Positions 23,385-57,469 of a DNA stretch of 64,000 nt are shown here, in pieces; positions within the stretch are counted from its first letter, which is position 1, and each line of letters opens with the position of its first letter. The notes under the pieces are model-generated. The model had not been told where the DNA came from and searched no databases. It was given only the letters and a program-made list of their open reading frames with translations. The stretch is taken from assembly GCA_018402305.1 (NCBI GenBank), contig JAGYJE010000006.1:116949-180948 (forward strand). Direction: 5' to 3'. Origin of the DNA: Puniceicoccaceae bacterium. Lineage in GTDB: Bacteria; Verrucomicrobiota; Verrucomicrobiia; Opitutales; Coraliomargaritaceae. A program made the position numbers and the translations under genes.

Positions 23385-24419
23385 ATGAGTTTTCCAACAT
23401 CCTATCGTTTTCGGGGGCGTCATTTAGTGCTGGGGCAGGATGCGGTCTACCATGTGGTCAGCCGGACGGCATTTGGTCGCTTCTCCTTCAACGATCTAGA
23501 AAAGAGGCACTTCTTGCGCCTACTCCAGAAACAAGCGGGGTTCTGCGGCATTGAAGTCCTCGCTTACTGTGTGATGAGCAACCACTTCCACCTAATGATC
23601 AAGGTTCCCGAGCCACGCCCGATCGCCGACGATGAACTACTCCACCGCTACCGCCTGCTCTACGGCGGCAAGCATTGCCCACCCTCATCCCCGGACCCGA
23701 AGGTGTTGGAAGCCCTGCTCCACGAAAATGGCTCCGAGGGGCAGATACTACGTGAGCGCATTCTCTCCAGAATGCACAGCCTTGCTGTATTCATGCGGGA
23801 ATTGAAACAGCGCTTCGGCATTTGGTACAACCACAGGCACAACAACAAGGGCACCCTCTGGAGCGAACGCTTCCGCAGCACGATCGTCGAAGCCAGCGCG
23901 GAGGCTTTGTCCACAGTTGCTGCCTACATTGATCTCAATCCAGTTCGCGCTCAAATCGTGGACGATCCGGCAGGCTATCATTTCAGCAGTTTTGGTCGCG
24001 CTTCTGGCGGTTACCCTGCAGCCCGGCGCGGTTATGAGACCATCTTCCGCATGAAAAAAGGCTGGGAGCAACTATTGCCCAGCTACAACCTAATCCTCTA
24101 CGGCAAGGGCGAGGCAGCCAAGGGCACTCCAGGCAAAGATTTTGGGCGGATTGACCCGGAAAAAGCGGCCCGTGTGCTGGAGGCAGGCGGTCATGTTTCG
24201 GTCGCCGAGGCGCTGCGGATGCGGATCCGATACTTTAGTGCTGGAACGGCTCTCGGTTCAGAGGAGTTTTTGGATGCGCTCAGCGCGAAATGGAATGCGC
24301 AATTCGGCAGCCATCGCACGCGCAACGCCCACCGCATGCATGGAGCCGCCTGGGGCGATCTGCGATCCTACCGGAATCTGCAGCGTGAACCGGTTACACG
24401 CCCTTTATTGCCCGATTGA
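23385..24419 (+). mobile_element. REP-associated tyrosine transposase (RAYT1)
   Basis: A 344-residue Y1-type transposase of the RAYT/TnpA-REP family. The HUH motif is SNHFHLM (H67, H69) and the likely catalytic tyrosine is Y181 in AAYIDLNPVRA, matching the Y-x-x-x-NPV motif of E. coli TnpA-REP. It is nearly twice the length of that protein (165 aa): an insert of about 50 residues follows the HUH region and a C-terminal extension of about 130 residues follows the tyrosine. Both are shared with the copy at 40462. It is flanked by an 8-bp stem hairpin (23318-23340) upstream and a structured element downstream. RAYTs mobilise or maintain REP hairpins rather than act as classical IS elements. Confidence 0.88.
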
Positions 24420-38144: not shown

Positions 38145-38152
38145 TTGAGGCC

Positions 38153-38253
38153 TTCCTTAGGGGTGACCTGGCATGGGTCTGAGACGTTTCCTTCATACGA
38201 CAGAGGCGATCCCTTCGAACCTGATCCGGTTGACACCGGCGTAGGAAAAGGAA
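38153..38253 (+). promoter_or_regulatory. TPP riboswitch (THI element)
   Basis: The aptamer core is plain: AGGGGTGACC near the 5' side, CTGAGA in the pyrimidine-sensor arm, then AACCTGATCCGGTT, ACACCGGCGTAGGAAA in the pyrophosphate arm. TTCCTT (38153) and AAGGAA (38248) close P1. It binds thiamin pyrophosphate and is 72 bp upstream of a TonB-dependent receptor gene on the same strand. No thi biosynthesis gene follows, so the receptor itself is the regulated gene. There is no T-tract terminator between aptamer and gene. Confidence 0.96.
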
Positions 38254-38295
38254 TGGATCGCTCTCTGAGCGGTACACCTTCAATCGCCCAAGGCC

Positions 38296-40451: not shown

Positions 40452-40470
40452 ATTGAATCATCTATTCAAT
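40452..40470. repeat. Hairpin at the 3' end of RAYT2
   Basis: A perfect 7-bp stem ATTGAAT/ATTCAAT with a 5-nt loop overlaps the RAYT2 stop codon and begins two bases after the receptor stop. It may serve the two convergent genes or be a RAYT-linked repeat. Confidence 0.5.
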
Positions 40471-41445
40471 CACCCGCTGTCGCAAAGCCTTCACCACAGC
40501 TAATCCGCCCCAATCAGCACCCTTCAAGGGGTGCCCGGCCTCTGGCAGCGGGCGTTTGCGCCCACGCTGCCAGAGATCGCGGAAGCCCCGCACGAATTCA
40601 GCCGAGCCAAAGATGGCACCATCGGTAAAATAGCGAATGCGGCAGCGCATGGCGACCGCCCTGGGCAGCACACCGCCCTCCTTCTCCAGGACCTGCAAGG
40701 CCTTTTCACGGCTGATGCGCCCACCCGCATCCGGCTCCGCCCCCTTGCCAAAAAGCAGCATCCGGTGCGCCTGCAGGGCACCGGCACCATCGACCGGGCC
40801 CCCGTAGGCCGACCAAATTCGTTGCAGCCCCCGCACCGCGAGGGCCGAACCGCCCACCGCCTCCGCATAGCCGCACCAGCGGTAGTCCTTCGGGTCTTCC
40901 ACCAACCCCGCCCGAACCGGGTTCAGGTCAATATAGGCCGCCATGGTTTGCAGTGCAAACCCCCGCCCCTCCACCAGGACCGACTTAAAGCGCTCCGCCC
41001 AAAGCGTGCCAAAACGCCCATGGTTCTGGTTGAACCAGATGGAAAAACGCTGTTTGAGCGTCTTCATAAACTCCGAGACATCCCCCATACGCGCCAGCAA
41101 CTGCTCGCGGATCTTTGCCGCATCCTCCCCTCCCGCAGCCAGCTTGCGCTCCAGAACCCGGGCCGAGGCCGTCTGATACTTGTTTGGCTTGGGATAAAGC
41201 ACACGGTAGCGCCGCATTAACTCCGCGTCCGCCAGCGGCCCTGACTCCGGAAAGTGGATCAGCACATGGAAGTGGTTGGACATCAGACAGTACGTCAGGA
41301 TCTCTCCACCCGAAAAGTCCGCCACCTGCCAAAGCATACGGCGAAGCATCTCCTTCTCACGATTTTTAAAAAGCCGCGCCCCACCTACCGCACGTGTCAT
41401 GCAGTGGTAAATCGCTCCCGAATATTTTATCCTGTGTTCACGCAT
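40462..41445 (-). mobile_element. REP-associated tyrosine transposase (RAYT2)
   Basis: A 327-residue paralogue of RAYT1. HUH motif SNHFHVLI (H58, H60) and catalytic-type Y171 in AAYIDLNPVRAG are intact. The insert after the HUH region (about 75-120) and the C-terminal extension (about 190-327, ending in KGADWGGLAVVKALRQRVIE) are shared with RAYT1 and absent from E. coli TnpA-REP. A third shared block, VAMRCRIRYFTDGAIFGSAEFV, recurs in RAYT1 as LRMRIRYFSAGTALGSEEFL. It ends in a hairpin and lies downstream of an AT-rich 19-bp palindrome. There are no terminal inverted repeats, as expected of RAYTs. Confidence 0.88.
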
Positions 41446-57257: not shown

Positions 57258-57322
57258 AGCTTTGACGTTACGAAACTAAAACTGCGGAGCGAGCCTTTTT
57301 GTCGGGTCCCCATCTTGCCAGC

Positions 57323-57469
57323 AGACCCGGCACAGACGAAGCCCGCGCGAGCGCGGACACCACAACAAACCAACGTGGCGTCCGAGCTTGCTCGGGCCCC
57401 AGCATTGTTGGCCGTCTGCCAAGCCAACAGACCCGGCACAACCGAAGCCCGCGCGAGCGCGGACACCAC
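57323..57469. repeat. REP-like hairpin triplet between katG and plsY
   Basis: Two 41-bp direct copies (57323-57363 and 57429-57469, differing at two bases) flank an inverted partial copy (57375-57397). All three share a 23-bp core: GTGG(T/C)GTCCG, then (C/A)GC(TC/TT)GC(G/T), then CGGGC. In the outer copies the hairpin stem is CCGCGC/GCGCGG; in the middle copy it is CCGAGC/GCTCGG, so a C-G pair is replaced by an A-T pair with the stem kept. The direct-inverted-direct order is like a BIME of REP elements. It begins just 3 bp past the katG stop and may shape the katG-plsY transcript. Confidence 0.88.

Follow-up and report, generated by a model that had tools for sequence, protein, structure and literature searches.

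Hairpins downstream of katG in a Puniceicoccaceae bacterium belong to a REPIN family linked to a single RAYT

Three closely similar hairpins lie between a katG-like and a plsY-like gene in a Puniceicoccaceae bacterium, and the locus raises the question of what they are and how they came to be there. The window examined (the whole stretch of DNA analysed, 64,000 nucleotides) is part of a MAG that is 90% complete. The sequence GTGGYGTCCGMGCTYGCKCGGGC occurs three times in the window, at 57339-57363 (-), 57375-57399 (+) and 57445-57469 (-), and exact matches to its core, GTGGYGTCCGMGC, are found at three positions only (57351-57363 (-), 57375-57387 (+) and 57457-57469 (-)). The first-pass annotation had described a direct-inverted-direct triplet, and this order is what direct reading and the exact core matches in the window give. 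The stems were also read correctly, with CCGCGC/GCGCGG in the outer copies and CCGAGC/GCTCGG in the middle copy. The outer copies sit in 47-nt direct repeats that are 94% identical and 106 bp apart, the second of which spans 57423-57469. When folded with DNA parameters, the 176-nt region surpasses 200 of 200 dinucleotide shuffles (z -4.1).

The cluster is intergenic since it is placed between the gene for a plsY-like glycerol-3-phosphate acyltransferase (Pfam PF02660; 56658-57257 (-)) and that for a katG-like catalase-peroxidase (Pfam PF00141; 57472-59682 (-)). The two genes are neighbours on the same strand, and the hairpins are thus downstream of katG and upstream of plsY, with 2 bp between the katG stop codon and the first hairpin pair. 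The sole Rfam match in the window is a TPP riboswitch at 38149-38264 (+) (RF00059, 71 bits).

The hairpins can be assigned to the GTAG superfamily of REPs, palindromes of 20-40 bp that bear a GTAG-like tag at one end, and they add a member to a kind that is already known. Each consists of a 4-nt tag (GTGG in the window), one pyrimidine and the hairpin GTCCGMGC-TY-GCKCGGGC; across the genome the tag follows GTRG, mostly as GTGG, with GTAG copies present. The 13-mer core has 65 exact copies in the 3.1-Mb genome compared with one for a reversed-pattern control. The unit is thus not unique to this locus; uniqueness is what the first-pass annotation had named as refuting its reading. A covariance model derived from 13 variants recovers at least 95 copies, a lower bound because scoring was confined to the best 150 of 5197 first-look candidates. 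Most copies form convergent pairs (REPINs), with 96-97 bp from tag to tag in 22 of 28, and the two arms of nearly every genomic REPIN differ at the fourth variable stem pair, one arm being of an A-T subtype and the other of a C-G subtype. REPINs also occur in tandem arrays with periods of 105-108, 115-118 and 138-139 bp and with homologous interiors.

The layout at katG is the same as that of the other REPINs of the genome, and the triplet is thus a piece of an ordinary REPIN array, half a REPIN followed by a whole one with a period of 106 bp. The complete REPIN (57375-57469 (+)) is 95 bp long and has the architecture of the others, with convergent REPs of the left-arm A-T subtype (57375-57399 (+), 43.3 bits in the covariance model) and the right-arm C-G subtype (57445-57469 (-), 43.5 bits). 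The remaining REP (57339-57363 (-)), also a right-arm C-G copy scoring 43.5 bits, is the orphan half of a truncated REPIN; what is left of its interior reaches to about 57317, and this right half spans 57317-57363. All three have exact core matches, and the orphan shares the 47-nt repeat.

The genome-wide search proposed in the first-pass annotation bears out the REP-like nature of the unit, with many copies, inverted pairs, a tag and hairpin, stem covariation and copies beside a RAYT gene. On intergenic placement the picture is mixed: 22 of 31 REP clusters lie between ORFs and 9 of 31 fall within ORFs that were called mechanically with a minimum of 100 aa, several of which are probably spurious. 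These nine clusters count against the REP reading, as does a tag that is mostly GTGG instead of GTAG. One group 3 enzyme cuts nearer to CC than to the usual CT when its tag is GTGG, and for such a tag cleavage at CC or CA in place of CT is predicted (PMC8266576). Exact copies number 1-8 in a few relatives versus 60 in the host genome, and the family has therefore expanded in the host lineage. A search across genome contigs with the long exact REP pattern gave no match; a shorter pattern matched 12 stretches, in MAGs of Opitutales and other Verrucomicrobiota.

Conservation of the fold was assessed in a non-circular manner using stretches that carry the tag, GT and the GCTYGC centre, with the four variable stem pairs left free. 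Watson-Crick pairing is perfect at all four of these pairs in at least 132 of 143 copies, which represent eight different stems. The 39 distinct sequences give 96.8% paired cells and their shuffles 81.1%. Covariation scores 0.372, as opposed to 0.109 for shuffles, and none of 500 shuffles reaches 0.372; slid registers score at most 0.135. All four variable pairs have changes on both sides of the stem, and independent compensatory changes emerge from the comparison with other copies and other species. Because the copies of one genome share ancestry, the cells are not independent, and so the covariation is evidence for the fold rather than a count of events. A T.G pair is kept as a wobble in 36 of the 39 copies and recalls the conserved mismatch required in the REP bound by Escherichia coli TnpA-REP (PMC8266576). 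The first-pass annotation had attributed the base-pair change within the triplet to selection on a folded element. The change is real, and the stem does covary across copies and species. The A-T/C-G change in the window is the same in nearly every REPIN, so it goes back to one inherited difference between the arms rather than to recent selection at this locus.

The enzyme proposed for these REPs in the first-pass annotation was either of two RAYT-like genes of the window. They are Y1 transposase genes with a match to Pfam PF01797, one of 344 aa (23385-24419 (+)) and one of 327 aa (40462-41445 (-)), and their presence in the same window as the REPs is what speaks for them. Neither has a copy of this REP within 1.5 kb, and both fall below the cut-off of 80 bits for NCBIfam NF047646 (REP-associated tyrosine transposase), with 49.2 and 59.5 bits, respectively. 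Y1_Tnp matches number 35 in the genome, and 30 loci were scanned together with about 1.5 kb on either side. The sole locus with these REPs in its flanks is a 187-aa gene on contig C67 (L063:8043-8606), which sits inside a REP array with at least nine REPs upstream and at least seven downstream. This gene matches PF01797 and passes the NF047646 cut-off (82.5 bits), and its product finds its best PDB match in TnpA-REP (4er8), in an alignment that covers the HUH and Tyr regions (E 9e-5). Orthologues in the same family of genomes are 67% (G006, which is the MAG Verrucomicrobia bacterium GSL.Bin9, with identical sequence and the same coordinates), 59% (G004) and 45% (G029) identical, and their flanks contain hairpins of the same design with different but compensated stems. 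Transposase and REPs have thus diverged together in the relatives. To judge from these sequences, the partner of the window REPs is the 187-aa RAYT, and it is extremely unlikely that the two window genes mobilise them.

Other Y1 transposases of the genome and of the order have features of their own. The 327-aa window gene has a nearly identical paralogue on another contig (L042 on C4), and L038 and L039 form a second such pair, with 99% identity across about 1.07 kb; these pairs suggest mobility of the transposase genes themselves. About ten loci (L047-L060) encode very similar Y1 transposases of 375-413 aa with a variable tandem peptide repeat of the RDAGGE type in the middle of the protein; their DNA is about 89% identical between loci and looks recently expanded. 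More distant homologues of the RAYT are accompanied by quite different GTAG hairpins, again usually of two subtypes. Eight such loci in Opitutales (L097, L099, L105, L106, L113, L114, L117 and L118) each have their own GTAG/GTGG hairpins, mostly in two subtypes, and constitute a ready data set for the coevolution of RAYTs and REPs.

The triplet is therefore very probably one REPIN plus half of another, and these REPINs would be non-autonomous mobile elements that the single C67 HUH tyrosine RAYT spread in this Opitutales genome. Each REPIN is built of two convergent REP hairpins, each headed by a GTRG tag. By analogy with TnpA-REP, the RAYT would bind tag and hairpin as single-stranded DNA, the tag would select the dinucleotide at which it cuts, and the REPIN would then be copied or moved into intergenic DNA, in this case landing just after katG. 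The position 2 bp past the katG stop codon and the quality of the fold would also suit hairpins that arose locally and serve mainly as an intrinsic transcription terminator for katG or as a structure that stabilises its mRNA. That explanation is very unlikely: the unit is found again at dozens of unrelated sites and surrounds its own transposase gene, and no T run follows the hairpins in the katG direction. Local origin as such is refuted by the genome-wide copies. A secondary effect is compatible with the REPIN reading, and as RNA the element may in addition act on the katG transcript, by stabilising it or by ending it.

Several known systems resemble this family. One is the GTAG-20 REP family of Opitutus terrae, most members of which have a tag mutated to GTGG (Di Nocera et al. 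2013, PMC3733652); the two are alike in phylum, in the GTGG tag, in hairpin REPs and in a REP-rich genome. The REPINs of Pseudomonas fluorescens SBW25 (Bertels and Rainey 2011, PMC3116915) have the same unit of an inverted REP pair with characteristic spacing, and likewise include singlets as decay products and a RAYT flanked by REPs. They differ in tag and stem sequence, and the arms of the present REPINs are of fixed, different subtypes (A-T and C-G). The REP/BIME system of E. coli with TnpA-REP (PDB 4er8; PMC8266576) has in common a tag and hairpin, a conserved imperfect stem pair and a homologous HUH/Tyr transposase, but its tag is strictly GTAG whereas GTGG or GTAG is found here, on a short stem with a 2-nt loop, and the C67 RAYT is only distantly similar to TnpA-REP.

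Elsewhere in the genome, REPs occur in an arrangement that calls for a separate explanation; the window copies have normal REPIN spacing and lie outside this question. Four loci (L067:2631-2780, L069:2744-2832, L062:14045-14134 and L075:2852-3001) contain two or three REPs each in the same orientation, spaced by exactly 61 bp in six of six intervals. From the first base of the tag, identity extends over exactly 28 nt in five of the six repeat pairs (29 in two loci, with an extra base G), and the sixth matches at 26 of 28 positions. The shared 28-29 nt include 5-6 nt of locus-specific sequence past the REP, after which the repeats diverge immediately. In five of six comparisons, the 33-nt inserts resemble neither each other nor the sequence that follows, whereas adjacent units in true REPIN arrays agree at 23-32 of 33 positions. 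Pairs at 61 bp with a GTGG tag are confined to the host genome among 373 genomes of the order, and a GTAG search over 132 of the 373 agrees.

Spacer acquisition by type I-E CRISPR systems has as its signature a 33-bp insert flanked by a 28-bp duplication, and we know of no transposon that leaves one. Non-canonical spacer integration by type I-E is reportedly the subject of work by Nivala and coworkers from 2018. Over-expressed Cas1-Cas2 has been described to integrate spacers off target (PMC11788318). Compared with type I-E arrays, the four loci have the same repeat length (28-29 nt), 33-nt insert, 61-bp period and insertion at a leader-like end, but differ in that the repeat is a REP, that there are only two or three repeats, that no cas genes are adjacent and that no protospacer was found.

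The host genome contains what are probably the remains of such a system. A congener (G001) has a type I-E locus with Cas1e, Cas3, Cas5e, Cas6e, Cas7 and Cse1 and an array with the repeat GCATTCCCCACTCGCGTGGGGATGAACCG at a period of 61. Beside its cas1e, a protein with a DnaQ-like exonuclease domain is encoded (L167:8170-8925), possibly a Cas2-DnaQ fusion. A search of the 90% complete host MAG for Cas1 and Cas7e detected neither. The host has one isolated I-E repeat, at C25:3641-3669. With about 90% identity to the repeats of the congener, it directly adjoins a C-terminal fragment of a WYL-domain regulator (relic, L179:3641-3872). The same regulator borders the cas operon of the congener in the same relative orientation. 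The simplest reading of these sequences is that a type I-E locus once lay at C25 and that a deletion with one end within the array and the other within the regulator gene removed it.

Together, the footprint and the relic suggest that a since-lost type I-E Cas1-Cas2 probably used REP hairpins as off-target sites. The integrase would have inserted 33-bp fragments at four REPs, each insertion duplicating 28 bp that begin at the tag, and would so have turned them into mini-CRISPR arrays of two or three repeats. The REP and the I-E repeat show a weak likeness (11-13 of 29 matches, p 0.05-0.17), and sequence mimicry is therefore not claimed; the comparison is limited to the dyad and the footprint that they have in common. 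Convincing protospacers for the six inserts were not found in phages, in IMG/VR (22-nt cores), in the genome itself or in 56 relatives, and a literature search that lacked the main paper on non-canonical integration returned no report of CRISPR spacers in REPs.

That the searches gave no source for any spacer and that the assembly has no cas1 are points in favour of tandem duplication or RAYT activity, rather than CRISPR adaptation, as the origin of the 61-bp arrays. Short tandem duplications of REPs do exist, with spacings of 36, 41, 46 and 55, but their inserts are homologous whereas those of the 61-bp arrays are mostly dissimilar. The exception is on C75, where the first insert slightly resembles the second (p 0.004, one of six comparisons) and is partly like a REPIN interior, with a 12-nt match to other REPINs, in phase and noted by eye; this resemblance makes C75 the weaker locus. 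An origin by duplication or RAYT activity would also have to produce the uniform 61-bp interval and repeats shared for 28-29 nt from the tag, and we regard it as rather unlikely. Insertion by Cas1-Cas2 remains the preferred reading of these arrays.

The REPIN at katG extends a known family and provides a clean case in the Verrucomicrobiota of a transposase and its hairpin diverging together between species. The wider interest of the 61-bp arrays lies in how CRISPR arrays come to arise at a distance from cas genes. If the reading of these arrays is true, REPs would serve in nature as seeds for new CRISPR loci and so connect two kinds of repeat in a new way, and the type I-E footprint on natural REPs would make dispersed palindromes landing sites for spacer integration in nature.
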